Below, one piece after another: positions 22,768 through 64,000 of a stretch of DNA of 64,000 bases. The DNA comes from Jiangella asiatica (GTDB lineage Bacteria; Actinomycetota; Actinomycetes; Jiangellales; Jiangellaceae). The stretch covers positions 62,001 to 126,000 of the forward strand of contig NZ_SMKZ01000003.1 in the NCBI RefSeq assembly GCF_004349065.1, read 5' to 3'. How positions within the stretch are numbered: position 1 is the stretch's first letter; each line of letters begins with the position of its first letter. A program made the translations under genes and the position numbers. Below the pieces are notes generated by a model. It ran no database searches. It was given only the letters and a program-made list of their open reading frames with translations, and had not been told where the DNA came from.

Positions 22768-22786
22768 GAGTTGGTCCCTTCGACTT

Positions 22787-45770: not shown

Positions 45771-46651
45771 CCCTTCACCCCTCCTGAGCCCAGGCCCTGT
45801 ACGAAGTGCCGCTGGCCGGCTATGAAGATCACGACAACTGGCACGATGGCCACGATCGTGCTGGCCATCAGCGGGCCGTACTGAGTGGCGCCGCTGCCGG
45901 CGAACGAGCTGAGCGCCAGCGGCAGTGTCTGCATGTCCGGGGACGACACGACCACCAGCGGCCAGAGGAAGTCCTCCCAGGCGCCGGTGAAGGAGAGGAC
46001 GGCGATCGTGGCCACGATCGGCCGCGCCAGCGGCAGGTAGATGCGCCAGAAGATGCGCAGCTCGCCGGCACCGTCGACACGAGCGGCGTCGGCGAGCTCC
46101 GGGGACAGGTCGAGGAAGTACTGGCGCGCGAGATAGATGTTCAACGGCTGGACCAGCAGCGGCAGGAGAAGCCCGGCATGCGTGTCCAGCAGCCCGGTGC
46201 CACCGTGTCCGAGCAGGTCGTTCCCGCCGGCGAGTGGGAAACCGCGCGTGATGAGGAAGAGCGGGATCAGCTGGACGACGGCCGGGACCATCGCGCTGGC
46301 GAGCACGACCACGAACAAGACCCTGGCGCCGCGGAAGTCGATGCGGGCGAGCGCATAGCCGGCGGCCGTGGCCGCGAGGCAGTTCGCCAGGACTGTCGAC
46401 GTCGCTACCACCAGGCTGTTGGCCATCGCCACCGGGATGTTGGTCGAGTCCCAGACGAAGCGGAAGTTTTCCAGCGTCGGCGCGTCGGGCAGGAGGGCTG
46501 GGGGATAGCCGAAGACCTCCGTCGGCGGCTTGAACGCCAGCGAGAGCATCCAGACGAAGGGTGCCGCGACGAGCAGGGCCGCGATGCCGGCGACGATCGT
46601 CCGCCGCCAGCCGGTCCGCCCCACCCGCGGTGCGGGCGCGGTCACGGTCAT
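45767..46651 (-). CDS. Carbohydrate ABC transporter permease, MalG type
   Basis: The 294-aa permease has six membrane helices and the coupling loop ELADAARVDGAGELRIFWR, the EAA motif contacting the ATPase. WMLSLAFKPPTEVF and the C-terminal VQGLGSGGVKG match the MalG group. Its ATG overlaps the stop of the MalF-type gene (ATGA at 46648-46651). No ATPase gene is present in the operon, so it likely uses a shared MsiK-type ATPase encoded elsewhere, as in many actinomycetes. Confidence 0.93.
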   Translation of the reverse strand: MTVTAPAPRVGRTGWRRTIVAGIAALLVAAPFVWMLSLAFKPPTEVFGYPPALLPDAPTLENFRFVWDSTNIPVAMANSLVVATSTVLANCLAATAAGYALARIDFRGARVLFVVVLASAMVPAVVQLIPLFLITRGFPLAGGNDLLGHGGTGLLDTHAGLLLPLLVQPLNIYLARQYFLDLSPELADAARVDGAGELRIFWRIYLPLARPIVATIAVLSFTGAWEDFLWPLVVVSSPDMQTLPLALSSFAGSGATQYGPLMASTIVAIVPVVVIFIAGQRHFVQGLGSGGVKG

Positions 46652-47586
46652 CGCCGCCCTCCCTTCGACAGCACCTTGATGTTGAGGTATGCCAGGGCGA
46701 AGATGAGGCTGAACAACAGGAACGCCATGGCGCTGGCGTTGCCCAGGCGGTAGTGCTCGAACGCCTCGTTGTAGATCAGCATGTTGACCACGGTTGTCGA
46801 CGACAACGGCCCGCCTGCGGTGAGTATGTAGACCTCGGCGAACGACTGCGCCAGATAGATGAGGTCGACGACCACCACGTAGGTGGTGATCGGGACGAGC
46901 AGAGGCAGCGTGACGTGGCGCAGGGTCCGCCACCGTCCGCAGCCGTCGACGGCCGCCGCCTCCAGGAGCGTCTTCGGGATTCCTTGCAACCCGGCCAGGA
47001 AGATGATCATGCCTCCGCCCAGCGCCTTCCACGCGCGCATCAGGATGAGGGAGAGCAGCGCCGTGTCCTCGTCGGTGAGGAAGGCGACTCTGGGCAGTCC
47101 GGCCAGGTCGAGCACGTAGTTGAACAGTCCGTCGTGGGAGTACAGCCACAACCAGATCATGCTGACCGCCACCAGGGGGACCACCCGCGGGAGGTAGAAC
47201 AGGGAGCGGAACAGCGCAACGCCCGGGAAGCGACCGTTCACCAGCAGGGCGAGCCCGAGTGCGCCGGGCACGGCCAGCATCAGGGTGCCCAAGGCGTACT
47301 GTGCGGTCACCCCGACGGCCTGCCAGAAGGCGCCGGAGGTCACCACCTCGACGTAGCCGTCGAGCCCGTGGAACCGCGGGCCGCCGCGTTCGACCGGGTT
47401 GTACGAGGTCAGGCTCAGGTAGAAGCCGTAGAGGATCGGGACGACGGTGACCACGACCAAGGCCACGACGGCGGGGAGTACGAGGATCCAGCCGGCGCGG
47501 CGCTGCGTCGCCAGCAGCCGGCCGCGACGGGGCGGCGGGGCGGCGTCCGGGGCCGCCGCCCGCGTGGAACCGGTCATCGTAGCCAT
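46648..47586 (-). CDS. Carbohydrate ABC transporter permease, MalF type
   Basis: The 312-aa permease has six helices. The N-terminal helix begins near residue 30 (GWILVLPAVVALVVV), SLTSYNPVERGGPRFHGLDG follows, and the coupling loop is KTLLEAAAVDGCGRWRTLRH. The ATG at 47586 is used; ATG at 47577 is an alternative three codons on. It starts 17 nt after the substrate-binding lipoprotein gene and forms the channel with the MalG-type subunit. Confidence 0.92.
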   Translation of the reverse strand: MATMTGSTRAAAPDAAPPPRRGRLLATQRRAGWILVLPAVVALVVVTVVPILYGFYLSLTSYNPVERGGPRFHGLDGYVEVVTSGAFWQAVGVTAQYALGTLMLAVPGALGLALLVNGRFPGVALFRSLFYLPRVVPLVAVSMIWLWLYSHDGLFNYVLDLAGLPRVAFLTDEDTALLSLILMRAWKALGGGMIIFLAGLQGIPKTLLEAAAVDGCGRWRTLRHVTLPLLVPITTYVVVVDLIYLAQSFAEVYILTAGGPLSSTTVVNMLIYNEAFEHYRLGNASAMAFLLFSLIFALAYLNIKVLSKGGRR

Positions 47587-47602
47587 GGACAGCTCGTGCC
47601 CC

Positions 47603-48895
47603 TCAGTCCGCGGCCAACAGTGCGTCGGCCTCGGCCGCGGTGTCGTCGAGCGCCTGCTCCGCGGGCGTTGCCCCGCGCAACGCGCTCTCGACACCAGCGG
47701 CGAGCACGTCGCGCACCTGCGTCCAAGCTTCGAGGTTCGGGTTGCCATGGAAGCTTTCCACGGCCTCCATGAACGGCCCGATGTAAGGGGTATCGGCGAG
47801 CTCGGGATCGGTGGCGAGCGACGAGCGCGCCGGGATGCCGCCGACTGCCTGGACATACGCCTTCGCGTTCTCCGGGCGCAGCAGGAACTCGATGAAGTCC
47901 CACGCCTGATCCTGGAGCTCGGAGTCGGCGCTGATGAACAGTCCGTTGCCGGCGCCCCCGAACGCTGCCGCGGCGGCAGCGCGCAGCGGCGGCGCCACCC
48001 GTATCTGCTCGGCCACCTCAGGAGCCTGCTCGTGGATGCTCTTGAGCGTCGCCTCGTCGATGAGTGCCATGGCCGCCCGCCCGGTCGCGAGCGGGTGCTG
48101 TGCGCCGGCGCCGCTGGTCGCCTCGCCGAGGCCCATAGCGACCGCGCCGTCACCGTTGTACAGGTCGGCGAGGAACTCGAGGGCCTCGACGCCTTCCGGA
48201 GAGTTCCACGTCGCCGTCGTGCCGTCGCCGTCGACCAGAGACCCGCCTGCCTGGAAGAGGAACGATGTGAAGGCTTGCGACATGCTGGTCGGGTTGTCGG
48301 CGGGCATGATCACGCCGGACCGGGTGATCGTGTCTCCGTCGCGCTCGGTCAGCGTCTCCGCGGTGCTGCGCAGGTCGGCCCACGTCTGCGGCGGGTCGTC
48401 GGGGTCCAGGCCGGCGTCGGCGAAGGCGTCGGCGCGGTAGGCGAGCAGGAAGCCGAAGCCACGCAGAGGCATGATCACTTGTTCGCCATCGACCTTGCCG
48501 TCGTCCAGGAAGGTGAGATCCGCGACCTCCTCGGGTGGCAGGTCAGCGAGGTAGTCGTCGAGGACGACGACCCGGTCGTTGGCGGCGTAGCCCGCGGCGG
48601 CCGCGTTGCCGTGGCCGAAGACGTCGGGCGCGGTGCCGCCGGCGAACGCGGTGGACAGGCGCGCGGAGACGTCCGCCCAGTCGACGAACTCGACCTCGAC
48701 CTCGACGTCGTGCTCGGCCTCGAAGGCTGGGACGAGCTCGTCGTTCACCCAGGCGATCTCCTGGCTGAGGTTGCCCGGGAACCAGACGTTCAGCACGTCG
48801 GAGTCGCCCGTCGCTTCGCCCGAGCCACACGCGGCGAGGACGAGGCCGGCCGCGGCGAGGCTCAGCGCCACAGGCGCTGATCTTCTCAGCTTCAT
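47603..48895 (-). CDS. Sugar ABC transporter substrate-binding lipoprotein, family 1
   Basis: The 430-aa protein has a lipoprotein signal ending in LAAC (Cys23) and the SBP_bac_1 pattern: VLNVWFPGNLSQEIAWVNDE, FGHGNAAAAGYAANDRVV and MALIDEATL. It binds an oligosaccharide outside the membrane and delivers it to the MalFG-type permeases that follow. It is the first gene of the minus-strand operon, and its promoter region is shared with the divergent secreted protein and contains LacI-type operators. Confidence 0.93.
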   Translation of the reverse strand: MKLRRSAPVALSLAAAGLVLAACGSGEATGDSDVLNVWFPGNLSQEIAWVNDELVPAFEAEHDVEVEVEFVDWADVSARLSTAFAGGTAPDVFGHGNAAAAGYAANDRVVVLDDYLADLPPEEVADLTFLDDGKVDGEQVIMPLRGFGFLLAYRADAFADAGLDPDDPPQTWADLRSTAETLTERDGDTITRSGVIMPADNPTSMSQAFTSFLFQAGGSLVDGDGTTATWNSPEGVEALEFLADLYNGDGAVAMGLGEATSGAGAQHPLATGRAAMALIDEATLKSIHEQAPEVAEQIRVAPPLRAAAAAAFGGAGNGLFISADSELQDQAWDFIEFLLRPENAKAYVQAVGGIPARSSLATDPELADTPYIGPFMEAVESFHGNPNLEAWTQVRDVLAAGVESALRGATPAEQALDDTAAEADALLAAD

Positions 48896-48942: not shown

Positions 48943-48956
48943 GATAATGCGCAGTA
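48943..48956 (+). promoter_or_regulatory. Operator-like site B, GATAATGCGCAGTA
   Basis: This is one of three related sites in the divergent promoter region. It lies 48 bp upstream of the binding-protein ATG, near the expected transcription start of the minus operon. It shares GATAATGCGCA with the inverted copy at 48966-48979. Confidence 0.5.
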
Positions 48957-48965
48957 CTTTGGTGG

Positions 48966-48985
48966 TGATGCGCATTATCTGTCAA
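48966..48985 (-). promoter_or_regulatory. Operator-like site A adjoining a TTGACA -35 box
   Basis: On the minus strand the -35 box TTGACA (48985-48980) is followed directly by GATAATGCGCATCA (48979-48966). A repressor bound here would cover the promoter of the sugar ABC operon. The best -10 with an 18-nt spacer is the weak CAAAGT (48961-48956). Confidence 0.55.
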
Positions 48986-48994
48986 GCCCACCTC

Positions 48995-49058
48995 TTGACA
49001 GCCATGCGATCGGGTCGGGAAACTGACGGCTGTCCGGATGTGATAATACGCATCATCA
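48995..49058 (+). promoter_or_regulatory. Promoter and operator-like site C before the secreted protein gene
   Basis: A consensus -35 TTGACA (48995-49000) lies 18 nt before GAAACT (49019-49024), a possible -10. The near-palindrome TGATAATACGCATCATCA (49041-49058) follows and runs into the ribosome binding site AGGAGG. It matches sites A and B (GATAATRCGCA), so one LacI-type regulator may control both divergent units. Confidence 0.5.
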
Positions 49059-49069
49059 GGAGGATGCCC

Positions 49070-50524
49070 ATGGAGCACTTCCCACGGCGAGCCAGCACGG
49101 CGGCATCGGCCGGGCGACGGCGGAGCGCTGTCAGGCGCTGGTGTGCCATCGCTGCCGCCATCGGTCTTTCGATGCCCGCTATCGCCGCGGCGGCGGACGA
49201 TCCCGACGCGGCGGCCACTCGGAACGGGGGGAAGCCAACCGGTATCAGCAACATGGTCGGGGCGCCGATCCCTCCGCAGGCCCTCCCGGAGAACAACCCC
49301 AGACTCGTGGCACAGTTCTCGATCGAGATCGAGAACGTGGCCGGCGGTGCGATCGAGCACGTGTCGCTGGAGGGTGAGCGCACTGTCCTCGGCCACGTCG
49401 AGAGGCCGGCCACGGCGACAGTGCCGGCGAACGACGGCTTCTGGGCGTCCAAGTACTCCCGGGCGGTCGACGGGACCGCCGGACACCTGCTCGCGACCTC
49501 CGTGTACGTGCTGCGCTCCAAGGTGTGGCCCGACGAGCGCTACGATCCGCTGCATTACGAGGACTTCGACCCCGCCACGGATCCCCGCGACTGGACGACC
49601 AGCCTGCTGAACGTCCGGCCGGACCGCTACCTGGAGGCCGACCACGGCCGGTGGCTGGCCGACACGATCTACACCGACATCCCTGGTGGCTCCGGCATCT
49701 TCGGCGGCGACAGCTCGCTACCCACGGGGGCACCGCTGAGCTACTTCGACGAGAACGCGGGCACCTGGCGCCCGATCGCGGAACACTTCAGCGCTGATCC
49801 AGCCGCCGCGCCGCCGCGGCGGCTGCGATTCACCGCCTACCGGCCGGTCGTGTGGGACGAGTCGCCCAGCTACATCGAGTTCGAGAACTGGGCCGCCGGT
49901 GACACCGTGGCCGGCGTCACCCACCGCCGCAATGGACGCATCACCGTGGGCTACGAGCACGGCGTCGCGCGGCATGTCGCCGACGTCGTCCAGCGAGTCG
50001 AGGGCATCGGACGGTTCGCCGGCACCGAGTTCGCTCATGTCGGTCAGCTCGACACCAACCATCCCGGCGCCTTCACCTTCTCCACCTCGCCCTACACCGG
50101 GTTCAGCTGGGATCAGAACGTGCGAGGCGGCTTCCAGATCGTTCCGGCCAACCACGTGAAGTTCCTCAGCAACGATCTGGGGCAGAACTCCTTCATCGAC
50201 CGTCCGCAGTGGCTCATCGTCGGGCCGGTCGGCGCGGACCCCGATGACCTGCATGACCCGCGGTACATCGTCGACGGTGAACTCTCCTTCACACCGGGCT
50301 GGGAGGCGATCGCACCGGTGTTCGGCATGTACGCCCGCACGACGTTCCATCCGGACGACCTCGAGGCGTCCACCTACCTCGAGGTCTCCTACGACCACGG
50401 CCGGACGTGGCAGCCCACGCCACAGTTCGTGGCCGTGCACGACCCCTCGACCTGCGCTGCTCCTACGTGCGCCCAGAACTGGACGAACCTCCGCGTCCAC
50501 CTGGCCTATCCCGACGGCCCGTGA
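49070..50524 (+). CDS. Secreted protein of unrecognised family, divergent from sugar importer
   Basis: The 484-aa protein has an Arg-rich N-terminus and a hydrophobic core (CAIAAAIGLSMPAIAAAADD), giving a signal peptide cleaved near residue 43. The mature part is rich in Trp, Tyr, Asp and beta-strand patterns (STSPYTGFSWDQNVRGGFQI, YLEVSYDHGRTWQPTP) and ends in a Cys pair (CAAPTCAQNW). I do not recognise the family. The position suggests a secreted lyase, hydrolase or glycan-binding protein feeding the importer. The ATG at 49070 is chosen for its AGGAGG 6 nt upstream; the ATG at 49064 directly abuts that site. Confidence 0.8.
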   Translation: MEHFPRRASTAASAGRRRSAVRRWCAIAAAIGLSMPAIAAAADDPDAAATRNGGKPTGISNMVGAPIPPQALPENNPRLVAQFSIEIENVAGGAIEHVSLEGERTVLGHVERPATATVPANDGFWASKYSRAVDGTAGHLLATSVYVLRSKVWPDERYDPLHYEDFDPATDPRDWTTSLLNVRPDRYLEADHGRWLADTIYTDIPGGSGIFGGDSSLPTGAPLSYFDENAGTWRPIAEHFSADPAAAPPRRLRFTAYRPVVWDESPSYIEFENWAAGDTVAGVTHRRNGRITVGYEHGVARHVADVVQRVEGIGRFAGTEFAHVGQLDTNHPGAFTFSTSPYTGFSWDQNVRGGFQIVPANHVKFLSNDLGQNSFIDRPQWLIVGPVGADPDDLHDPRYIVDGELSFTPGWEAIAPVFGMYARTTFHPDDLEASTYLEVSYDHGRTWQPTPQFVAVHDPSTCAAPTCAQNWTNLRVHLAYPDGP

Positions 50525-52092: not shown

Positions 52093-53727
52093 GTGGCCAC
52101 GCACGAGCTGAGCTTCGACCCACGGCATCCGTGGTATCCGGTTCCCAATGTGCCCGGTGCTGAATGGAGTGTCGAGGTCTTCACCGTCGACGACGTCAGG
52201 CTGCTCGATCCCCGAAGGACCACCTTCGAGGGAGGAAGCCTGCTGGCTGACGGTCTGACGTGGCCGGGTGCTCAGCGCAACGTGGCCGGGCGGGTCCGCG
52301 CGGACCTGATGATCGCACCCGGCGGGGACGCCGTGACCTGGCGGATCCGGGCCGAGGCCGACGTGCCGGTCAAGGCGATCAAGCTGCTGTTCCGTGGACT
52401 TCCCGGCGGTGCCGAGGACGGATGGTGGTCGCCGACCACACCCCGCGACGTCGCGCTCACGCCGCGCCCGGACGAGCCGGTGCTGCTGCGCTATCCGTGG
52501 CCCAACTGGCAGACGCCGTGGATCTGCCAGGGCGAAGGCCCCGCCGTGACGCTGAGCACGCGGGACACCGAGGTGCGCGCCAAGCGCTTCTACACCTTCC
52601 TCCCGCCGTGGTCGCCGTCCGCGGTCACCGAGGTCGTCTGCGACCAGCTGGCGACCCGTCGCACGCCGGACTTCGAGGCCCCGCCGATCGTGCTCCGCAC
52701 GTGCGCGGACGTCGCCGCCGTCCACGCCGACCTGGCCGAACACCTCGAGCACGTGGAGCGCTCCTTCGGCCTGGCCGACTGGGAAGACCGCGCGGACGTA
52801 CCGGACTGGGCCCGCGACATACGGCTCGTCGTCACGTTGCACGGCCAGCACTGGACCGGCTACGTCTTCAACACCTTCGACGACATGGGGCGCATCCTCG
52901 AGGAGGTCACGCGGCACGTGCCCGGCGAACACGTGCTCGCTTACCTGCCCGGCTGGGAAGGCCGGTACTACTGGCAGTACCCCATCTACCGTCCGGGGGA
53001 GGACCTCGGCGGCGCGGACGGCTTCCGGCGGCTGACGCAGACCGCGCGGCGGCTCGGCGTGCATCTGATGCCGATGTTCGGGGCCAACGGCGCCAACGTC
53101 GGCCGGTACCCGCGGTGGGAGGACGCCGCCTTCCGCAGCGCCGGCGACCGGTACGTCGTGCACGTCAACCACCCGGACTGGGACGGTGACCGGACGCGAG
53201 AGGACGACCAGGTCTTCCTCAACCCCGGCGAGCCGGAGTACCGGGCCTTCCTGCGCGAGCAGATCGGCGAGCTGGTCACGTCGTACGACGTGGCCGGGGT
53301 GTTCCTCGACACCAGCGCCTGCTGGTTCGACGACCCGCGCCACGAGCTGTACGCCGGCTACCGGGCGCTGGTGGGGGAGCTGCGCGAGGCACATCCCGGC
53401 CTGCTCGTCTGCGGTGAGGGCTGGTACGACGCGTTGCTCGGGCTGCTGCCGGTCAACCAGACCTGGCTCGACGTCGCCCGGCCGCCGCGGACTCCCGACC
53501 TGCCCTACCGGTACTCGCGCGTGCTCGGCCATCTCAACAGCGGCTGCCCGGGACAGGGCAGCACCGGGGTCCACGAGGGCGGTTTCCGGGAGCCGGCCAA
53601 GCCGCTGCGCGTGCCCGGGTTCGTCCCGTCGCTGGGCTTCGTGTCCGACACGCTCGAGCGCTACGCCGACGACGTCGCGGCGTTCTGCCGGGAAGTCGGC
53701 GGGCGTGAGGACGGGAGGCAGCGGTAG
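52093..53727 (+). CDS. Unclassified TIM-barrel glycoside-hydrolase-like protein
   Basis: The 544-aa protein has no signal peptide. An N-terminal beta-sandwich-like part (about 1-210) is followed by a barrel (about 230-530) with strands YLPGWEGRYYWQYPIY, LGVHLMPMFGANGANVG and GVFLDTSACWFDD. Asp406 (FLDTSA) and Glu442 (VCGEGWYD) sit at strand ends, as do nucleophile and acid/base residues in retaining clan-A-like glycosidases. I cannot place it in a named GH family. The GTG at 52093 follows GAGGAGG. As first gene of an operon with sulfatases and sugar permeases it probably cleaves an imported sulfated oligosaccharide. Confidence 0.75.
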   Translation: MATHELSFDPRHPWYPVPNVPGAEWSVEVFTVDDVRLLDPRRTTFEGGSLLADGLTWPGAQRNVAGRVRADLMIAPGGDAVTWRIRAEADVPVKAIKLLFRGLPGGAEDGWWSPTTPRDVALTPRPDEPVLLRYPWPNWQTPWICQGEGPAVTLSTRDTEVRAKRFYTFLPPWSPSAVTEVVCDQLATRRTPDFEAPPIVLRTCADVAAVHADLAEHLEHVERSFGLADWEDRADVPDWARDIRLVVTLHGQHWTGYVFNTFDDMGRILEEVTRHVPGEHVLAYLPGWEGRYYWQYPIYRPGEDLGGADGFRRLTQTARRLGVHLMPMFGANGANVGRYPRWEDAAFRSAGDRYVVHVNHPDWDGDRTREDDQVFLNPGEPEYRAFLREQIGELVTSYDVAGVFLDTSACWFDDPRHELYAGYRALVGELREAHPGLLVCGEGWYDALLGLLPVNQTWLDVARPPRTPDLPYRYSRVLGHLNSGCPGQGSTGVHEGGFREPAKPLRVPGFVPSLGFVSDTLERYADDVAAFCREVGGREDGRQR

Positions 53728-53729
53728 CC

Positions 53730-55103
53730 GTGCCACCTCGTCAGCGTCCGAACATCATCTTCATCACGTGTCACGACCTGGGGCGGTTCCTCGGCTGTTA
53801 CGGGGTCGAGACGGTGCGGTCGCCGGCTCTCGACGCGTTGGCGGAGGAGAGCGTGGTGTTCGAACGGGCCCACTGCACCGCGCCGCAGTGCAGCCCGTCG
53901 CGGGCGTCCCTGTTCACCGGGCGCTATCCGCACTCGACCGGCGTGATGGGGCTGACCCAGCCACCGTTCGAGTGGGACCTGCGCCCGCAGGAGCGGCATG
54001 TGGCGAGCCTGCTGGGTGGCGCCGGCTACCGCACGGCGTTGGTCGGCATCCATCACGAGTCCAAGACCGGCAGCGACGACGCCGTCGCCGAGCGACTGGG
54101 CTTCGACGTGGTCCATCAGCGGGGACAGCGCGGCGAGGACGTGACGGCGCTGGCGACGGCGCAGCTGGGAGAGCTGGCGGGCGGGGACCGGCCCTTCTAC
54201 CTCCAGGTCGGGTATCTCGAGCCGCACCGGCTGCGGCCGCGGGAGCGCACCGAAGACGGCTACCAGGGGTTTCTGGGCGACTACATCGAGCCCGACGCCC
54301 AGCGAGGGGTGACGGTCCCCGGGTACCTCGTCGACGACGCCCGGGCTCGGGAGGAGCTCGCGGAGCTGCAAGGGGCGGTGCGATACCTGGACACCCAGAT
54401 CGGCCATCTGATGGCGGCCGTCGACCGCCTCGGGGTGCGCGACGACACCGTCGTCGTGTTCGTTACCGATCACGGCCTCGCCCTACCGAGGGCCAAGTGC
54501 AGTCTGTACGACCCGGGCCTGGAGATCGCCCTGATGGTTCGCTACCCTGCGGCGGGCTGGGGCGGCCGTCGCCGGTCGGAGCTCGTGTCCGGCGTGGACC
54601 TCGTGCCGACGCTGCTCGAGGCCGCCGGCGCGGAGCCGGCGAACCAGATCCAGGGGACCAGCCTGTCGCCTCTCCTGGACGCGTCGCCGGCCCGGCCGTG
54701 GTCACGCGACGCCGTGTTCGCCGAGTTCACGTATCACGAGTACTACGACCCGCGCCGGTGCGTGCGTACCGACCGGCACAAGCTGATCGCCAACTTCAGC
54801 GTGGCGCCGGCCTTCATGGACTGTTCGTCCTCGTGGGACCGGCGGACCCGACCCCGGGTGCCGATGAACGTCCCGACGGGCTTCCATCCGCCCGTCGAGC
54901 TGTACGACCTCGAGCTCGATCCGCTGGAGGTGTCCAACCTGGCCGGCGAACCCGACCACCTCAGCGTCGAGACCGACCTGCTCGGCCGGCTGCACACCTG
55001 GATGCGGGACACCGGCGACCCGCTGCTTGCCGGCGCGGTGACCCCGCCCCTGCACGCGTCGGCCATGCGGTCGCTGACGGGGACGGGGGTGATCCGCCGA
55101 TGA
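53730..55103 (+). CDS. Sulfatase (S1), HDxG-type, sulfamidase-like subgroup
   Basis: The 457-aa intracellular sulfatase has the metal strand NIIFITCHDLGRFLGCYG (His-Asp variant), formylglycine motif CSPSR at Cys54-Arg58, and VTDHGLALPRAKCSLYDPG. It is the nearest relative here of the sulfatase at 19673; both share LFTGRYPH and the PRAK-LYDPG block. The GTG at 53730 lies 2 nt after the glycosidase-like gene with GGGAGG upstream. The ATGA at 55100-55103 overlaps the next permease gene. N-sulfatase activity is suggested by the subgroup name only and is not proven. Confidence 0.91.
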   Translation: MPPRQRPNIIFITCHDLGRFLGCYGVETVRSPALDALAEESVVFERAHCTAPQCSPSRASLFTGRYPHSTGVMGLTQPPFEWDLRPQERHVASLLGGAGYRTALVGIHHESKTGSDDAVAERLGFDVVHQRGQRGEDVTALATAQLGELAGGDRPFYLQVGYLEPHRLRPRERTEDGYQGFLGDYIEPDAQRGVTVPGYLVDDARAREELAELQGAVRYLDTQIGHLMAAVDRLGVRDDTVVVFVTDHGLALPRAKCSLYDPGLEIALMVRYPAAGWGGRRRSELVSGVDLVPTLLEAAGAEPANQIQGTSLSPLLDASPARPWSRDAVFAEFTYHEYYDPRRCVRTDRHKLIANFSVAPAFMDCSSSWDRRTRPRVPMNVPTGFHPPVELYDLELDPLEVSNLAGEPDHLSVETDLLGRLHTWMRDTGDPLLAGAVTPPLHASAMRSLTGTGVIRR

Positions 55104-56062
55104 GTTCGGCGATCACCGGTCATCAGGACCTCCTGTCCGCACCGGATGCACGCCGGAGCCGCTCGCGGCGGCTCGGACGACAGCAGTTGTGGATCTGGCT
55201 CCTGCTGACGCCCACCGTCGTGCTCTACGGGCTGTACACGGTGTATCCGGTGATCGCGAGCTACTGGTACTCGTTCGTGGAGTGGAACGGGTTCGAGTCG
55301 CAGAAGCGGTTCGTGGGACTCCAGAACTTCCGGGACGTCTTCGCCGATGACCTGTTCTGGAACTCGTTCAAGGTCACGCTCCTGTTCATGGTCGTGGTCG
55401 TGCCGCTCAAGGTCATCCTCAGCCTGTTGCTCGCGATCGTGCTCAACTCGCCGAAGCTGCCGTTCTCGACGCTGCTGCGCACCGCGTACTTCCTGCCGGT
55501 GGTCACCACGACGGCCATCGTGGGCGTGGTGATGCAGTTCGTCTTCGACCCCGCCAGCGGCCCGGCCAACCAGCTCCTGCGCACGTTCGGCGTCTCCGAG
55601 GGCGTGAACTTCCTGGGTGACTCCTCGACGGCGCTCTGGACGGCCGCCGGGGTGTACGTGTGGAAGTGGTTCGGCATCACGATGATCTACTGGCTGGCCG
55701 CCCTGCAGACCATCCCGGACGAGGTGTACGAGGCGGCGCGGATGGACGGCGCGGGCGCGCTGCGGCTGCTTCGTCACATCACGCTGCCCCTGCTGAGGCC
55801 GTTCCTCATCATCATCACGCTGCTGTCGCTCGAGTCGTCGCTGCGGGTCTTCGACCTCGTGCTGACCTTGACCGGCGGCGGTCCCTTCTACTCGACCGAG
55901 GTGGTCGAGATCTACATCTACCGGTGGGCGTTCAGCGCGACCATCCCCCAGCTCGGCTACGCCTCGGCGGCCGCGGTGATCTTCGGGTTGTTCGTCTTCT
56001 TCGTCGGACTGTTCCAGCTCCTGGGCATCAGGTCGGTACAGAGGGCGAGGGCGGCATCATGA
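55100..56062 (+). CDS. Carbohydrate ABC transporter permease, MalF/UgpA type
   Basis: The 320-aa permease has six membrane helices. The first is WIWLLLTPTVVLYGLYTVYP, followed by FVEWNGFESQKRFVGLQNF typical of MalF/LacF types, and the coupling loop DEVYEAARMDGAGALRLLRH. The ATG overlaps the upstream sulfatase stop and the next permease start overlaps its stop, so all are co-translated. Neither a binding protein nor an ATPase gene is present in this operon within the window. Confidence 0.93.
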   Translation: MSSAITGHQDLLSAPDARRSRSRRLGRQQLWIWLLLTPTVVLYGLYTVYPVIASYWYSFVEWNGFESQKRFVGLQNFRDVFADDLFWNSFKVTLLFMVVVVPLKVILSLLLAIVLNSPKLPFSTLLRTAYFLPVVTTTAIVGVVMQFVFDPASGPANQLLRTFGVSEGVNFLGDSSTALWTAAGVYVWKWFGITMIYWLAALQTIPDEVYEAARMDGAGALRLLRHITLPLLRPFLIIITLLSLESSLRVFDLVLTLTGGGPFYSTEVVEIYIYRWAFSATIPQLGYASAAAVIFGLFVFFVGLFQLLGIRSVQRARAAS

Positions 56063-56967
56063 CCTCCGTCATCACGACCCGCACCCGCGAGACAGCGCCT
56101 ACCGAGCGCACGCGGCGCAACCGCTGGAGCACGGGCCGGCTGCTGCGGCGCCTGCCGTGGTGGCTGATCGCGCTGGTGCTTCTCGGCGGTGCGTTGCTGT
56201 GGGTGTATCCGTTCCTGTGGATGCTCTCGGCATCGCTGAAGGACAACATCGAGGTCTTCAGCTCCAGCCTGTCGCTGCTGCCGGAGTCAGCGGTGTTCGA
56301 GAACTACGGCCGGGCCTGGAGCGACGCCAACTTCAGCGGGTACATGTGGAACACGATCATCGTGACGGTCGTGACGGTCGTCCTCGTGGTCATCCGCTGT
56401 GCGATGGCGGGCTACGTCATCGGCAGGTACGGCTTCTTCGGCAAGAAGACCGTCGTCGTCGTCCTCGTCGCGACGTTGTTCGTACCGACCGGCTACACGA
56501 TCATCCCGGTCGTCGACATCACCCAGCAGCTCGGCTTGTTGAACTCACTGACGGGCATGATCATCGCGCTGTCCGGTGGCGGGCACGTGGCCGCGATCCT
56601 GCTCTACGCCGGGTACTTCCGTCAGGTGCCTCGCGAGCTCGAGGAGTCCGCAACGGTCGACGGCGCGGGGTTCTTCACGATCTTCCTGCGCATCATGCTG
56701 CCGCTGGCGAAACCGATCACGGCCACCGTCACGCTGCTGACGTTCCTGTCGACGTGGAACGCGTTCTTTCTTCCGCTCGTGTTCACCTTCTCACGACCCG
56801 ACCTGCGCACGCTCAGCGTCGGCATGCAGGCGTTTGTCGGCGAGAACACCACGGACTGGGCCGGGATGGCGGCGGCGGCCACCATATCGCTGGTTCCCGT
56901 CATCGTCTTGTTCGTGGTTCTGCAACGCAGATTCGTCGAGGGCTTCGCGGGAGCGATCAAACAATGA
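56059..56967 (+). CDS. Carbohydrate ABC transporter permease, MalG/UgpE type
   Basis: The 302-aa permease has an Arg-rich N-terminus, a first helix at about residues 36-56 and PFLWMLSASLKDNIEVF, a MalG-group signature. The coupling loop is RELEESATVDGAGFFTIFLR and the C-terminal end is RRFVEGFAGAIKQ. It pairs with the MalF-type gene before it and overlaps the following sulfatase by ATGA (56964-56967). The substrate is inferred to be a sulfated oligosaccharide from its neighbours. Confidence 0.93.
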   Translation: MTSVITTRTRETAPTERTRRNRWSTGRLLRRLPWWLIALVLLGGALLWVYPFLWMLSASLKDNIEVFSSSLSLLPESAVFENYGRAWSDANFSGYMWNTIIVTVVTVVLVVIRCAMAGYVIGRYGFFGKKTVVVVLVATLFVPTGYTIIPVVDITQQLGLLNSLTGMIIALSGGGHVAAILLYAGYFRQVPRELEESATVDGAGFFTIFLRIMLPLAKPITATVTLLTFLSTWNAFFLPLVFTFSRPDLRTLSVGMQAFVGENTTDWAGMAAAATISLVPVIVLFVVLQRRFVEGFAGAIKQ

Positions 56968-58424
56968 CCGACCGAAACGCCGCGCGACGCCGGCCCAACA
57001 TCCTGCTGATCTGCACCGACCAGCAGCGCTACAGTGCGCTGGGCGCGTACGGGAACGACGAGATCGACACGCCGACCCTGGACCGGCTAGCCGCCGAGGG
57101 TGTGCTGTTCGAGAACTGCTATGTGCAGAACCCGGTGTGCGGGCCGTCCCGTGCCAGCCTGATGACCGGCCGCTACGTGCAGTCCCACGGCCAGTGGGCG
57201 AACGGCGTCGCGCTGCCCGAGCACGAGCAGCTGTTCAGCCGGGTGCTGGCTGGCGCCGGATACGACTGCGGGCTGGTCGGGAAGCTGCATCTCGCCGCGT
57301 GTTTCGGCGGACGGACCGAACCGCGCCACGACGACGGGTTCCGGGTGTGGCGCTGGGCGCACGACCCCGGACATCGCTCGCCTGAGAACCAGTACCACCG
57401 CTGGCTGCAGGAGGAGCATCCCGACCTGTGGCGGGCCGTGAACGACCCGAACACGCCGACGACCTTCGCCAACATCGAGACCCGGGGCCACTTCAGCCGC
57501 TGGATCTCCACCGAGACGATCGACTTCCTCCGCAACGGTCGTGAACGCGCCAGGCCGTTCTTCGTCGTGGCGAACTTCTTCGATCCCCATCACGCCTTCG
57601 ACGCGCCCGAGGAGTACGTCAAGCGGTACGACCCGGAGACGCTGAGCCGGCCGGTGACGCGGGCCGGTGAGCTGGCCGGCAAGCCGTCCATCTTCACGGA
57701 GGCCTCCGCCCGCTCCTACGCCGGGCACGAGCGGGGCTACGTCGAGTACTCGCCAAGCGAGCTGCAGGAGACCAAGGCCGCCTACTACGCGATGGTCTCG
57801 CTGATCGACGACGAGGTGGGCCGCATCCTGGACGCACTCGAGGCGGAGGGCCTGGCCGACGACACCCTGGTGATCTTCACCAGCGACCACGGCGAGATGC
57901 TCGGCGACCACCAGCTGATGCTCAAGGGACCGATGATGTACGAGCCGGCGGTGCGCGTGCCCCTCATCCTGCGCTGGCCGGGCGCGCTGCCGGCCGGGCA
58001 TCGTCGCGCCGAGTTCGTGCAGTGGATCGACCTCGCGCCGACGATCCTGGAGGCGGCCGGGCTGGACCCGATGCGGCGTGGGCAGGGCGAGACACTGCTG
58101 CCGCTGGCCCGGGGCGACCACGCGAGCTGGACGCGCGACTGGGCGATCTGCGAGTACCGGGACAGCGGGCACTCCTACGACCCGCCGGTCCACACGACCA
58201 TGTTGCGCCACGACCGGTGGAAGCTCGTCGTCCACCACGGTCCGCCGTCCACGGCGCGCGATCGCGCGGGGGAGCTGTACGACTTGGCCGCGGATCCGCA
58301 CGAGCTCGACAACAGATGGGACGATCCCGCGTTTGTGCAGTCGCGCATCGAGCTGCAGGAGTTGTTGCTGGACGTGCTCGTCGCCACCCAGGACCGCACC
58401 CAGCCGCGCGAAGCGCACTGGTGA
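56964..58424 (+). CDS. Sulfatase (S1), TDQQR type
   Basis: The 486-aa sulfatase has no signal peptide. It has NILLICTDQQRYSALGAYG, formylglycine motif CGPSR at Cys59-Arg63, and TSDHGEMLGDHQLMLKGPM, the second metal-binding block typical of the choline-sulfatase/TDQQ branch. It resembles the sulfatase at 14864 in type but is not a close copy. The ATG overlaps the permease stop. It is the second sulfatase of this operon, again of a different subfamily from the first, implying stepwise removal of two sulfates. Confidence 0.93.
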   Translation: MTDRNAARRRPNILLICTDQQRYSALGAYGNDEIDTPTLDRLAAEGVLFENCYVQNPVCGPSRASLMTGRYVQSHGQWANGVALPEHEQLFSRVLAGAGYDCGLVGKLHLAACFGGRTEPRHDDGFRVWRWAHDPGHRSPENQYHRWLQEEHPDLWRAVNDPNTPTTFANIETRGHFSRWISTETIDFLRNGRERARPFFVVANFFDPHHAFDAPEEYVKRYDPETLSRPVTRAGELAGKPSIFTEASARSYAGHERGYVEYSPSELQETKAAYYAMVSLIDDEVGRILDALEAEGLADDTLVIFTSDHGEMLGDHQLMLKGPMMYEPAVRVPLILRWPGALPAGHRRAEFVQWIDLAPTILEAAGLDPMRRGQGETLLPLARGDHASWTRDWAICEYRDSGHSYDPPVHTTMLRHDRWKLVVHHGPPSTARDRAGELYDLAADPHELDNRWDDPAFVQSRIELQELLLDVLVATQDRTQPREAHW

Positions 58425-58484: not shown

Positions 58485-61400
58485 ATGCCTGTTGACAGTG
58501 CCACGATCGACCGCCGTCGGTTCATCCTCGGGTCGGGCGGCGTGATCGCCGCTCCGGTCCTCTTGGGCGGGGATCCGGCCGCCGCGTCGGCCGCACCGGC
58601 GGGTGACGCCATGCCGACGGACCTGGCCGCCCAGTCGTGCGATCTCACGCTGCGCTGGCGCCATCTCGAGGCTCGCGTCGTCCGCGACGGGCTCGTGGCG
58701 GCCTGGCCGATGGACGAGGGCACCGGATACGTGTTCGACGACGTCAGCGGTCGCGGCCACGACTTCCACATCACCGGGTCGCGGTGGAACACCACCGACA
58801 GTGGACTGGTCGACGCGTTCCGCCGACCCGGCCGCCGCGGCGGCGGCGTCTTCCTGGACGGCACCCGGTGGCTGCAGGCACAACAGGCCAGCGACCTGGA
58901 CCTGAACGGCGCGCCGGCCGGGATGACCCTCACCGCGTGGGTCCGTCCCACCGAAGGGCCCGGCGAGCGGGCGACGCTGCTGTCGTACGGCGACGCCTAC
59001 GCGCTGACCCTGGCCAGCGACGGAGCGTTGCGCTTCACCGTCCGGCGCCACGACGGCGAGTACCGGTCCGTCGAGTCCGATCCTCTGGCGGTCCCGCCGG
59101 GCCGGTGGACGCACGTCGCGGCGGTGACCTGGCCCGGGGCGAGCCGGCTCACACTGACGGTCGACGGCCGGACCGTCCGCCGGTTCGCAGTGCCGGCGTC
59201 GATCCGCACGCCTGCCACGGACGACCTCGTCGCGGGGGTCGCCCTGCACGGCCAGCTCGACGAGCTCACGCTGCACGACCGCGCCCTCGACCCGGACGAG
59301 GTACGCGGCCTGTACCTGGTGGGTCTGCCCAGGGTCTACACGCAGAGCCGGGAGACCATCGACGCCGACTCGCGGGAGTGGACGTCGTTCAGGGGCAGCG
59401 ATCCCATCCCGCACCCGGTCGAGGCGGACACGGTGCTGGCCGTGCGCTTCGACGGCGACACCGGGCCGGTGCACGGACGCGGCCGGGTGGCCGACGAGTC
59501 GGCCGGCCTCGAGCCCGGTCACTTCGGCGGTGCGCTGCGGGCGACCGGCGGCACGGGCGTCGCGTACGAGTCGCCGCTGGGTGCGCCGTCCGGCACCTGC
59601 GAGGTGTGGTACCAGACCGTCGTGGACGACGCGGACCCGGACCGGTCCGAGCGCAAGGAACTGGTGCGCGCGGAGGGCGACCGCTGCGGCCTGGCCCTCT
59701 ACACCGAGGCGGGCAGGTGGCACGCGACCCTCCGAATCGCCGGAGCGGCAGCTCGCACCGTCTCCGGACCCGCGCAAACGTTCGTGCCCGGCCAGCTCGA
59801 GCACGTCGCCGTCGCGTGGGGACCGCACGGCGGCCAGGATGCACTGTCGCTGCACGTCAACGGTGTCGAGGTGAGCCGCGAGCCCATCGATCTGGCCGGT
59901 CGCGTCTTCGACCGGCACGTCGTCGTCGGCGGCAGCCGGACCGCGCCCGCGTACTGCCTGGTCGACGACCTCCGGCTCAGCGACCGGGTGCGGACCTGGG
60001 GGGAGATCTGCCCACGTGGCCACGCGGCCACCGACGCGGCCGGGCTCGACCTGCGCGACGGCTTCGACCGAGCACCCGGCACGGCGCCGAGGTGGTGGCG
60101 CCCGGCCTCCGGGGGCGCCGCCTGGTCACACGAACGCAAGACGTGGGAGGACCCGAGCCGCACCGGAGACGCACCGGAGCGGGCCACCGCCCTGCTCCAG
60201 CGGGAGGTCGCCGGGCTGCATCCGATCCACCACCCCGACGCATACGGGCACGCGTCGTCCATCGAAGCGGGCGTGTCGTTCGCCGCCGTCGCCGACGGCT
60301 GGGCCGGTGTCTTCGTCCAGGCCTCCGCGCCGGAGGAGCCGTTCTCCGGGCACACGTTCGCGGTAAACCCCGGCCGCGGACAGCTGCGCATAGCGCGCTA
60401 CGCGGCGGGCGCACCCGTGGAGGCGAAGACGCTTCCGTACGACTTCCCGACCCGGGCCGCGACGACGTACGAGCTCACGCTCACCGCGACCGGCGACGGC
60501 CTGCTGCGCGGCTTCGTCGACGGGCACAACCTGATCACGATGCGTGTGGGCGACGGCGCACCGGCGTCCGGCCACGCGGGCCTGTTCACGCATGACGCCG
60601 CGGCCTTCTTCGACGACGTCCACGTCACCGCGCTGACCCCGGCTCGGCCCGCGTCCCGCCTGGTCCAGCTGCGCCTGTTCACCACCGGCGGCGAGGTCGA
60701 GGCGCGGGGGGTGCGCCTCGAACCGTTCCGGTGGCACAAGCGGCGAGGGCTGCCACCGTGGCAGTACACCAGACAGGGTGAGGAGTTCCCGGGCGACCCC
60801 GAGCTGCCGGGGAACCTCGCCGGCGCCGACACACCGACGCCGGAGCGCCCGATCCCGCCGGCGTTCTGGCGCTCGGAGGACAGCGCCAACAGTGAGCTGG
60901 TGACGATCGACGGCCGGGTGGTGTTTTTCATGCGCGGGAACCCGCGGGTCGGCGGCCGTTCGATCGGTGCCCGCATCGGCGTCCTGGAGACGACCGTCGA
61001 CACGTTCGACGGGATCCACTTCCAGGACCCCAGCGCGGGCATCACCGACCTCGACGATTGCAAACTCCTGCAGGGACCCGTCGACGAGTCTCCGGAGGAG
61101 ATGCGCCACCAGGAGCGCTTCCAGCTCAACGACGAGGGGTGTGCCTACGTCGGGGACGGGCGGCTGCTCCTGTTCGCCAAGGAGTTCCGCAACAAGGTCG
61201 GCGACTTCCCGTCGTACCGCCGCCTGATCTACGGCTACTACGACGTCCGTGCCGACGACTGGGTGGACGGGGAGTCCCGCTACGTCGACTGGTCGGCCAT
61301 GGATCCGGGCGACCCCGAGGCGGTGTTCCAGGGGATCGAGGGCACGCCGGAGCTCGTCTCGCTGCGCGACCCGGACACCGACGACTATCGCGTGCTGCTG

Positions 61401-61889
61401 TACCACCAGGCCACGACCGGCGACGACCGGCGAGTCATGGGGATCACCGGACTGCGGCTGGCCGGCGACGGTGTGCCCGTCCTCGACCCGGAGCACCCCA
61501 CCGTCCACTCGATCGGCCGGCCGTCGAACAAGGTCGTCTACAGCTTCCGCGTCCTGTTCGACAACGGCATCTACTACCTGCACTACGCCGAGGGCCCGCA
61601 GACCCCGGACTGGCCCGACTACTTCGTGCTCGGCGCGGCTCTCGACCCCTACGGCGGGCCATGGATCGTGAACGAGGACACCAACGCCGACGACGCGACG
61701 TACTTCCGGCACGGCGAGCGGTACGAGCCCGACAACGCCGCGATCTGGCAGGGGACCATGCTCAAGCTGCGGGGCCGCTACTACATGTACTACGAGAACT
61801 ATCACGCCATCGGGACGAACCTGGACCAGCAGTACTCGAACTACAACCATCCACAGGCGGGCTCGCGCGTCGGCTACGCCACCGCGTGA
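58485..61889 (+). CDS. Giant Tat-exported LamG-domain protein with C-terminal beta-propeller (GH43-like)
   Basis: The 1134-aa protein has a twin-arginine signal (DRRRFILGSGG, cleavage near residue 38). Two concanavalin-A/LamG-like domains follow at about 70-275 (LVAAWPMDEGTG, WVRPTEGPGERATLLSYGD) and 315-500 (DTVLAVRFDGDTGP, DDLRLSDRVRTWGE), then a third sandwich at about 510-735. The C-terminus (about 800-1134) has propeller-like strands (SANSELVTIDGRVVFFMRGN, MLKLRGRYYMYYENYHAIG) like GH43/clan-J enzymes, but catalytic acids cannot be assigned. The ATG at 58485 follows GGGAGAGG. It probably binds or cleaves the polysaccharide outside the cell. A paralogue starts at 62668. Confidence 0.82.
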   Translation: MPVDSATIDRRRFILGSGGVIAAPVLLGGDPAAASAAPAGDAMPTDLAAQSCDLTLRWRHLEARVVRDGLVAAWPMDEGTGYVFDDVSGRGHDFHITGSRWNTTDSGLVDAFRRPGRRGGGVFLDGTRWLQAQQASDLDLNGAPAGMTLTAWVRPTEGPGERATLLSYGDAYALTLASDGALRFTVRRHDGEYRSVESDPLAVPPGRWTHVAAVTWPGASRLTLTVDGRTVRRFAVPASIRTPATDDLVAGVALHGQLDELTLHDRALDPDEVRGLYLVGLPRVYTQSRETIDADSREWTSFRGSDPIPHPVEADTVLAVRFDGDTGPVHGRGRVADESAGLEPGHFGGALRATGGTGVAYESPLGAPSGTCEVWYQTVVDDADPDRSERKELVRAEGDRCGLALYTEAGRWHATLRIAGAAARTVSGPAQTFVPGQLEHVAVAWGPHGGQDALSLHVNGVEVSREPIDLAGRVFDRHVVVGGSRTAPAYCLVDDLRLSDRVRTWGEICPRGHAATDAAGLDLRDGFDRAPGTAPRWWRPASGGAAWSHERKTWEDPSRTGDAPERATALLQREVAGLHPIHHPDAYGHASSIEAGVSFAAVADGWAGVFVQASAPEEPFSGHTFAVNPGRGQLRIARYAAGAPVEAKTLPYDFPTRAATTYELTLTATGDGLLRGFVDGHNLITMRVGDGAPASGHAGLFTHDAAAFFDDVHVTALTPARPASRLVQLRLFTTGGEVEARGVRLEPFRWHKRRGLPPWQYTRQGEEFPGDPELPGNLAGADTPTPERPIPPAFWRSEDSANSELVTIDGRVVFFMRGNPRVGGRSIGARIGVLETTVDTFDGIHFQDPSAGITDLDDCKLLQGPVDESPEEMRHQERFQLNDEGCAYVGDGRLLLFAKEFRNKVGDFPSYRRLIYGYYDVRADDWVDGESRYVDWSAMDPGDPEAVFQGIEGTPELVSLRDPDTDDYRVLLYHQATTGDDRRVMGITGLRLAGDGVPVLDPEHPTVHSIGRPSNKVVYSFRVLFDNGIYYLHYAEGPQTPDWPDYFVLGAALDPYGGPWIVNEDTNADDATYFRHGERYEPDNAAIWQGTMLKLRGRYYMYYENYHAIGTNLDQQYSNYNHPQAGSRVGYATA

Positions 61890-61899
61890 AGCTCGCGAG

Positions 61900-62393
61900 C
61901 GGCGACTCAGCCGCCCTGCTGGGGAGGCGAACCCGTGATGACGCGTTCGACGAGGTGAGGTCGGCGACCGCCGCCTCTGCCTCGGCCGACTCCGCGTCCG
62001 TCCCGACGATCGGCGCCAGCAGGAGCCGGGCATGCGCCTCGGCGACCGGAGCGAAGTCGACTCCTTCCACGACCTCACGCACCGCGGTGTCGAGTTGGAG
62101 CATGTCCATGCCGTCGACTCCTGGTGCGATCGATCCGACCGAGCCGTCGACGGCGACGACGTACAACCCGTCCACGCCCAGCCGGTTGTGCAGCAACGCG
62201 GCGAGCCCTTCAGGTTCGCGGTACGGATCGCCGGGCCGCAGCGGCGGATCGTCGCCCGGCAGGTGGTGGGCCAGCACACGAACGCGGGATACGGCAGCTC
62301 GGCGATGTCGGCCCGGAGCAGCTCGGTGATCTGGTCGACACGGCCGCCGAGGTTCGAGACGGACGCGTCAGCCCTCACGGGTCTGATCCTCAC
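61900..62393 (-). pseudogene. Frameshifted gene of unrecognised family
   Basis: On the minus strand from about 62393 the sequence reads as protein (SNLGGRVDQITELLRADIAE, LPYPAFV). After a frame change near 62280 it continues plausibly (LAHHLPGDDPPLRPGDPY, EGLAALLHNRLGVDGLYVVA, LDTAVREVVEGVDFAPVAEA) to about 61900. The shift splits an apparently single-domain protein of about 150 aa. The downstream frame stays open into the end of the convergent giant gene without similarity. I do not recognise the family. It could be a sequencing error or a decayed gene. Confidence 0.45.
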
Positions 62394-62486
62394 ACCGACC
62401 GCTCGGGTATCCGTTGGTAGTCATCCACGCGCGAGCCACAACTCGAAAAGGCGCATCTGTGGCGTGATGTCGGCCCGCTGACCTCC

Positions 62487-62500
62487 TATATCGATTTCGT
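62487..62500. promoter_or_regulatory. Partial operator-like site CTATATCGATTTCG
   Basis: The right half CGATTTCG is identical to that of the sites at 52052 and 62593, while the left half is poorly conserved. It lies about 100 bp upstream of the strong site at 62587 and could be an auxiliary operator. Confidence 0.35.
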
Positions 62501-62551
62501 GAGCGCGACGGGGCGTCACGTGCTGCTTGCCAAGGCCCGCACGGTCAACTC

Positions 62552-62600
62552 TTGACATTAGCGTCACACCGGACACTATGGAGTTACGAATTCGATTTCG
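62552..62600 (+). promoter_or_regulatory. Sigma70-like promoter with overlapping operator palindrome
   Basis: TTGACA (62552-62557), a 16-nt spacer and CACTAT (62574-62579) form a good promoter for the gene at 62668. CGAATTCGATTTCG (62587-62600) begins 7 bp after the -10, covering the likely transcription start. It shares 13 of 14 bases with the site at 52046, before the first glycan operon. Confidence 0.65.
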
Positions 62601-62667
62601 CGACCAACGGAGGGTGGTTCAAACGGCGGGTGACCGCCCGACCCCAGCGAACGAGGTGGAGGTTCAA

Positions 62668-64000
62668 TTGACTACGAGCGGAATCCCACGACGTCGTTTT
62701 CTCGAGCTGTCCGGTGGTGTGGCCCTTGCCCCGGCCCTCCTCAATGGTCTGGGCGCGCCGGCATCGGCCAGCGCTGAGACCATGTCGGGCCCACCCGGCG
62801 TCGGTCAGGACGTGCCGCCGGCGTGGACCTGCGACTTGACCAGGAGATGGCTGCACGTCGAGCCGCGAGTGGCCATGCCGGGCCTGGTGGCGGCGTGGCC
62901 ATGTGACGAAGGGTCTGGATACGCGTTTCGCGACGTGACGGGCAACGGGCACACGCTGTACGTCATCGGCAGCAGGTGGAACACCTCCGACAGCGGACTG
63001 ATCTCCTCGTTCCGGCGGCAGGGTCGGCGCGGCGGCGGCGTCCACCTGGACGGAACTCGATGGCTGCAGGCCCAGCACACGCCCGCACTCGATGCTGGCG
63101 GCGCGCTCACGGTCTCGGTATGGGTCCGGCCGGCGGAGCTGCCGGAGGCGGAGGTGTCGTTGCTCGCCCTTCCGGGCCAGTGGTCCGTCGGCCTGACAGC
63201 TGCCGGCGCGATCCGGTGGACGGTGGTCGGCACGGACGGCAACCCGCGCACCGCTCAGTCGCCGGACCAGGCAGTCGTGGCCGGGAGATGGGCCCACGTC
63301 GCCGCCACGGCCAACGCGCACAGTGGCCGGCTGATCGTCTTTGTCCACGGGTCGCGCGTCCGGGTCGTCGACGTCCCCGCGTTCACGCCGGCCGGCACCG
63401 GCGACGACCTGATGGTCGGGGAGGGTCTGGTCGGTGACGTCGACGAGCCCGCCCTGTTCGACCGTGCTCTCGGCGCCGTGGCGGTCGAACAGCTCTACCT
63501 CGTCGGCGTCCCTCAGCTGTACACGCAGACCCGCGAGACTATCGACGCCAAACGCAGCGAGTGGACCCGGTTCAAGGGCAGCGAGCCGATTCCGCATCCG
63601 GTCGACACGGACACGGTCTTCTCCGCGCGCTTCGACGGATCGGCGGTATCTGACCAGGGTGCCGAGCCGGTCCGCGGTACCGCGTCGTTCCGGCCGGGGC
63701 GGTTCGGCGCGGCCCTGGCCGGATCGGACGACGGCATCGGCTACGCCTCACCCCTGGCCGGCTCGGACGGCACCTTCGAGGCCTGGTACGTCCCGACTGG
63801 CGGAAACCGAGGCGGCGAACTGTTCCGAGCGGCCGGCGCGCACGGCTGGCTCAGCCTGTCGCTCGTCGCGGACCGTTGGCGCGCGGACCTGGGCACCGGT
63901 GAGGTTACGACCCACACGGTGACAGGTCCGGCTCAGCGGCTGGTGACCTCGACGCTCGAGCACGTAGCCGTGGCCTGGGGAGACAGCGGCGGTGACCGAC
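62668..64000 (+). CDS. Tat-exported LamG-domain protein, paralogue of the giant protein, truncated by window end
   Basis: At least 444 codons are open to the window edge. The start is TTG at 62668 with GGTGGAGG about 5 nt upstream. The Tat signal is IPRRRFLELSGG. The sequence is colinear with the protein at 58485: LVAAWPCDEGSGYAF versus LVAAWPMDEGTGYVF, GSRWNTSDSGL, GVHLDGTRWLQAQ, and TQTRETIDAKRSEWTRF then GSEPIPHPVDTDTV. Two LamG-like domains are visible in the window. It has its own promoter and operator, so it heads a further unit downstream. Whether it keeps the C-terminal propeller cannot be seen. Confidence 0.85.
   Translation, partial: MTTSGIPRRRFLELSGGVALAPALLNGLGAPASASAETMSGPPGVGQDVPPAWTCDLTRRWLHVEPRVAMPGLVAAWPCDEGSGYAFRDVTGNGHTLYVIGSRWNTSDSGLISSFRRQGRRGGGVHLDGTRWLQAQHTPALDAGGALTVSVWVRPAELPEAEVSLLALPGQWSVGLTAAGAIRWTVVGTDGNPRTAQSPDQAVVAGRWAHVAATANAHSGRLIVFVHGSRVRVVDVPAFTPAGTGDDLMVGEGLVGDVDEPALFDRALGAVAVEQLYLVGVPQLYTQTRETIDAKRSEWTRFKGSEPIPHPVDTDTVFSARFDGSAVSDQGAEPVRGTASFRPGRFGAALAGSDDGIGYASPLAGSDGTFEAWYVPTGGNRGGELFRAAGAHGWLSLSLVADRWRADLGTGEVTTHTVTGPAQRLVTSTLEHVAVAWGDSGGDR

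Follow-up and report, generated by a model that had tools for sequence, protein, structure and literature searches.

Tandem, putatively exported LamG proteins with a divergent propeller-like domain in a sulfatase locus of Jiangella asiatica

Introduction

The stretch of Jiangella asiatica DNA analysed here (64,000 nucleotides of a 7.03 Mb assembly, hereafter the window) ends with two large paralogous genes placed among sulfatase and sugar transporter genes. What do these proteins do there, and are they enzymes? A sequence-only reading had seen in them an extracellular enzyme for a sulfated polymer, possibly with a new multi-domain architecture. Our analysis indicates that the pair most likely encodes exported sugar-binding, possibly sugar-cutting proteins of a locus for the uptake of a sulfated carbohydrate.

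The gene pair and its neighbourhood

The genes of the locus that lie in the window are the following.

52093..53727, plus strand: GHL10-like putative hydrolase, no evident signal peptide (PF02638, E 1.1e-5, just under the Pfam cut-off)
53730..55103, plus strand: sulfatase 1, CSPSR formylglycine motif, no evident signal peptide (PF00884, E 2.7e-40)
55100..56062, plus strand: ABC sugar permease 1 (PF00528, E 5.1e-15)
56059..56967, plus strand: ABC sugar permease 2 (PF00528, E 6.2e-15)
56964..58424, plus strand: sulfatase 2, CGPSR formylglycine motif, no evident signal peptide (PF00884, E 1.5e-52)
58485..61889, plus strand: gene 1, predicted exported LamG-LamG-ConA-propeller protein, 1134 aa (open frame; Shine-Dalgarno GGGAGAGG before the ATG; whole-length paralogue and homologue)
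62552..62579, plus strand: promoter-like TTGACA (62552) and CACTAT (62574), 5' of gene 2 (consensus match only)
62668..64000 in the window, ending at window-equivalent 66057, plus strand: gene 2, paralogue of gene 1, 1129 aa (from the genome sequence)

The five upstream genes form a same-strand series arranged nearly end to end, and sulfatase 2 ends 60 bases before gene 1. Gene 2 runs 2057 bases past the window end and is complete in the genome; 14 bases downstream of it lies a gene for a solute-binding protein, then sulfatase 3, and further on a UPF0261 protein, a Gfo/Idh oxidoreductase, a second binding protein (on the opposite strand) and a LacI regulator. All three nearby sulfatases have the C-x-P-x-R formylglycine motif. 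Together, the sulfatases, the ABC sugar importer, the GHL10-like hydrolase and the LacI regulator suggest a locus for the uptake of a sulfated carbohydrate. By inspection, sulfatase 3 and the downstream solute-binding protein carry twin-arginine-type signals. Sulfatases 1 and 2 and the GHL10-like hydrolase look cytoplasmic, judging from their N-termini, so that the gene pair supplies prominent exported candidates for the first step. The GHL10-like protein does not fix the substrate, since in a relative of the same family its counterpart (47-48% identical) stands beside an ABC system without sulfatase or LamG genes.

Genes 1 and 2 are colinear from end to end, propeller region included, at about 54-55% identity. 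The two colinear paralogues seen earlier are thus full-length tandem genes and, once the sequence is followed past 64 kb, the second is found to keep the propeller; the epithet "giant" was overstated for 1134 residues. As start of gene 2 we retained TTG 62668 rather than TTG 62527, the former having a GGAGG Shine-Dalgarno sequence ahead of it. Between the two genes, the minus strand contains a coding-like stretch (61762-62393) with an apparent frame shift (NLGGRVDQITELLRADIAELPYPAFV to RVLAHHLPGDDPPLRPGD), which may be a decayed gene; the minus-strand frame in the 61889-62668 gap gave no Pfam match.

Putative export signal and N-terminal modules

The domain order of the gene 1 protein is as follows (all on the plus strand); "three members" refers to gene 1, gene 2 and a single further homologue described below.

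58485..58592: twin-arginine signal DRRRFILGSGGVIAAPVLL (sequence inspection; RR invariant in three of three members)
58683..59330: LamG module 1, residues 67-282 (PF13385, best stretch residues 135-273; weak match to PDB 4qvs, residues 78-279)
59331..59438: conserved linker RETID...EW, PIPHPV, residues 283-318 (47% identical over three members)
59439..60008: LamG module 2, residues 319-508 (second PF13385 stretch; HHalign against LamG module 1, 94%)
60009..60704: putative third concanavalin-like region, residues 509-740 (sub-threshold PF06439)
60870..61886: propeller-like domain, residues 796-1134 (five hairpin repeats; Foldseek GH43 on a low-confidence model)

We infer Tat export from a twin-arginine motif followed by a hydrophobic stretch, recognised by inspection; the Pfam TAT_signal HMM did not match the gene 1 protein. 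The earlier proposal of Tat export agrees with the twin arginine being invariant in the three members. The argument built on it, that the protein would fold or load a cofactor before secretion, is weak: the neighbouring solute-binding protein and sulfatase 3 have signals of the same type, so that a Tat signal alone does not imply cofactor loading.

Each protein contains at least two stretches matching Laminin_G_3 (PF13385), with whole-protein E values of 1.1e-30 (gene 1, 107.3 bits over two stretches) and 6.6e-29 (gene 2, 101.4 bits), both scores being above the Pfam cut-off of 27.6. The two modules are related to each other (HHalign probability 94%), and the linker pattern TID...W..F.GS.PIPHPV is found in gene 1, gene 2 and the third homologue, which bears out the two LamG-like modules and conserved block noticed in the initial reading.

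That reading took the propeller as residues 800-1134 and overlooked the region preceding it; the start is rather near 796, and a third, tentatively concanavalin-like region occupies about residues 509-740, between LamG module 2 and the propeller. The 3-keto-disaccharide hydrolase/DUF1080 profile (PF06439) aligned weakly with it in two of the three members (E 0.05-0.12, best 0.052), the gene 1 score of 12.9 bits lying under the cut-off of 26.8 bits for membership, and HHalign gave no significant match between this region and the LamG modules.

Fold of the C-terminal domain

Residues 747-1134 had no Pfam match even at E 10, and a PDB sequence search with the propeller domain returned none. At E up to 10, the GH43 profile (PF04616) matched none of the three members and no Asp-box family matched the propeller. 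GH130 (PF04041) and GH32 (PF00251) likewise gave no Pfam match, and the GH32 motif NDPNG is absent from the sequence. On these comparisons the predicted propeller is divergent and fits no catalogued family.

Five blade-type hairpins are centred near residues 810, 892, 968, 1028 and 1097, with a spacing of 59-82 residues; this pattern, written post hoc after inspection, was reached in none of 5000 shuffles. AlphaFold models of the gene 1 and gene 2 propellers had a mean pLDDT of about 41 each, and because both predictions are of low confidence the Foldseek matches (TM-scores of about 0.15-0.4 over the two models) are taken as hints only. For model 1 (gene 1), the best match was a GH43 enzyme (E 3.0e-4), and at E ≤ 0.001 there were 13 chains, 12 of them GH43-type enzymes representing about five different proteins; sialidases came close behind, with TM-scores somewhat above those of GH43. 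For model 2 (gene 2), matches were mixed, with GH43 arabinanases among the top ones and none below 0.001. HHalign comparison of the propeller, in a set that left out L033, whose row had a wrong reading frame, gave p 0.004 for GH43 (reversed sequence 0.39) and p 0.0008 for the GH43/130-like group (reversed sequence 0.065), the absolute probabilities being low (8% and 25%).

The hairpin repeats, Foldseek and the profile comparison, taken together, point to a five-bladed GH43-type propeller as the best-supported, if weakly supported, fold. The propeller proposed from sequence alone is kept to that extent, without a family match. The five-bladed propellers of GH130 and GH32/GH68 presumably share this general fold class; from these families the pair's domain is set apart by its HHalign probabilities (0.4% and 1.6%, respectively) in addition to the missing Pfam matches. 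A blade-1 motif, N-x6-DG-x6-R, which we take to resemble GH130, had suggested a GH130 identity; the same profile comparison does not support it. The clan-J assignment proposed earlier has to be corrected for a GH43-type fold, GH43 belonging to clan F (PMC7939473).

Acidic residues

For catalysis, a GH43 xylosidase relies on Asp as base, Asp as pKa modulator and Glu as acid (PMC5919610). In gene 1 these positions read Asn802, Glu956 and Tyr1019, with an uncertain register derived from weak HHalign and hand alignment: Tyr1019, in the fourth blade, comes from the weak HHalign register, and N802 and E956 from blade spacing. The Asp/Asp/Glu set that was to be sought in a predicted structure is apparently absent from this tentative alignment, and other acidic residues are conserved. 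D799, E900, E956 and E1036 are identical in each of the three members, which is weak evidence with only three sequences at about 55% identity. Conserved acidic residues of gene 1 amount to 4/4 in putative B-C loops, 3/7 at A-strand starts and 18/47 elsewhere, in classes set by eye, on small numbers and with the fifth blade missing from the third member. The lack of any conserved acidic centre, which would have spoken for a non-enzymatic role, is thus not what these sequences exhibit, and an acidic centre could still be formed by the four invariant residues.

The absence of the canonical set is compatible with catalysis, because exo-beta-1,3-galactanases of GH43 subfamily 24 (Pc1,3Gal43A and BT3683), which are five-bladed, are active without the usual Asp base (PMC7939473). 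Both enzymes appear in the Foldseek list for model 1. They retain the Glu acid of blade IV, whereas its counterpart in the pair is Tyr1019 (tentative alignment), and no similarity to the propeller was detected at the sequence level.

Homologues and known designs

A scan of genome contigs with gene 1 alone found no homologue; the two-copy propeller alignment found a single one, on a Propionibacteriales MAG contig (L009). Overall identity is 50%, against 56% for the propeller alone; the order of domains is that of the pair, and the contig end breaks the protein off within the propeller. Its twin arginine is followed by a lipobox-like AVTVGC, a sequence that suggests a Tat lipoprotein anchored at the surface. 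No sulfatase was seen on this short contig, which covers one side of the homologue only.

No relative was found with gene 1 in 21 other genomes of its order. The propeller alignment, run against 396 other genomes of the homologue's order and against overlapping samples from the phylum (397 genomes) and the class (395 genomes), brought up no genuine one. The full-length alignment gave only LamG1-type matches in the homologue's family and, over the samples of the window's order, class and phylum and of the homologue's order and family, everything beyond the three members was a LamG1-type or chance match. Viral contigs, phages and plasmids contained no relative; the plasmid collection gave a single weak match, confined to LamG. 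Two weak matches (L013 and L017) were inspected and dismissed as unrelated. The family is thus very rare, with three known members; more distant relatives may exist, because a contig scan depends on short peptide patterns that match almost exactly.

In GH43-type enzymes, Laminin_G_3 modules have been reported to function as carbohydrate-binding modules (PMC9655821). MC72GH43-2, in which a LamG-type module is joined to an arabinan-active GH43-type enzyme (PMC9655821), is among the closest known designs, and a related report concerns a Ruminiclostridium josui arabinofuranosidase with an accessory Laminin_G_3 module. The pair differs from this type by having two LamG modules and a third, putatively concanavalin-like region N-terminal to the propeller, and by a propeller that Pfam does not recognise as GH43. 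Since the combination is already known, we regard the pair as a variant of a known design with an unclassified propeller. Our literature search found no paper on LamG with GH43 and sulfatases in Actinobacteria, nor on LamG domains with five-bladed propellers.

Possible roles of the pair

The explanation that we tentatively favour, at somewhat below even chances, is that genes 1 and 2 code for multimodular, Tat-exported proteins that act on carbohydrates within a locus for sulfated-carbohydrate uptake, in which the propeller cuts the polymer and the oligosaccharides are imported sulfated. The LamG modules, and probably also the third region, would hold the polymer or keep the protein close to it, and the divergent propeller, with five blades and of the general GH43/GH32/GH130 type, would release oligosaccharides. 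These would enter still sulfated through the ABC system formed by the upstream permeases and the binding protein just 3' of gene 2, and the presumably cytoplasmic sulfatases 1 and 2 and GHL10-like enzyme would then desulfate and cleave them. The two LamG modules, the hairpin repeats, Foldseek, HHalign, the invariant acidic residues, the neighbourhood and the published LamG-GH43 enzymes (PMC9655821) argue for this explanation. Against it stand the lack of Pfam and PDB matches, the low pLDDT and TM-scores, the low absolute HHalign probabilities, the small number of sequences behind the invariant residues, the tentatively aligned triad positions that are not Asp/Asp/Glu, and the relative whose GHL10-like protein is accompanied by neither sulfatase nor LamG genes. 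The earlier proposal of an extracellular enzyme for a sulfated polymer finds its support in the context, with three motif-bearing sulfatases nearby, and its weak point in that triad.

The pair could instead consist of non-catalytic capture proteins, whose LamG modules and degenerate propeller attach to the polymer at the surface of the cell and leave the cutting to another enzyme. Asn and Tyr at the canonical base and acid positions (tentative alignment), three concanavalin-like modules per protein and the putative lipoprotein anchor of the homologue agree with such a role; the invariance of several acidic residues on predicted entry-face loops does not, and no other exported depolymerase was found beside the pair, the GHL10-like enzyme having no evident signal peptide. 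We consider this a possible but somewhat unlikely outcome. Distinctly less probable is an incidental sulfatase neighbourhood, with the pair acting on an unsulfated plant polysaccharide such as arabinan or galactan: arabinanases and galactanases are among the nearest folds, the GHL10-like protein has a single close relative, next to an ABC system and no sulfatase, and none was seen on the one-sided contig of the homologue, but sulfatase 2 ends 60 bases 5' of gene 1, and 3' of gene 2 the binding protein gene is followed by that of sulfatase 3. That the propeller is a lyase for polysaccharides or some other enzyme of propeller fold, for instance a sialidase-like one, and not a GH43-type hydrolase, appears more improbable still. 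Sialidases are among the Foldseek matches, with the somewhat higher TM-scores, but the repeats number five, not six to eight, no Asp-box family matches, and GH43 is first by E value in model 1 and frequent in model 2.

For the favoured polymer-cutting role, a stronger claim would be that the five-bladed propeller starts a glycoside hydrolase family of its own, in which a rearranged acidic centre (e.g. D799, E956 and E1036) replaces the GH43 triad, the substrate is a sulfated polysaccharide and the architecture is the rare LamG-LamG-ConA-propeller one; we judge this rather unlikely. An active propeller would be a candidate for a new family of enzymes acting on sulfated glycans, and would add to the GH43-type propellers that do without the canonical base; an inactive one would illustrate how a propeller can become a binding module. 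Either way the pair makes a clear testable case, with no conceptual surprise.

Other genes of the window and genome

Other genes upstream in the window include one for a sulfatase-family protein (18405-20900) and one for a pectate-lyase-like beta-helix protein (22787-24730); with an FAA-hydrolase protein also encoded within 18405-24730, they suggest more polysaccharide-related genes there. On the minus strand, 44277-48895 encodes a DUF4127 protein in full length (E 5.6e-120), next to which are genes for ABC permeases and a solute-binding protein. Positions 48947-50524 encode a 525 aa protein with a weak BNR/Asp-box match only. Elsewhere in the genome, a 358 aa open frame (L036, L113; G000:C52:28231-28731) scores better with GH32 than with GH43 and may, from its sequence, encode another five-bladed-type enzyme; a similar match is present in a congener.
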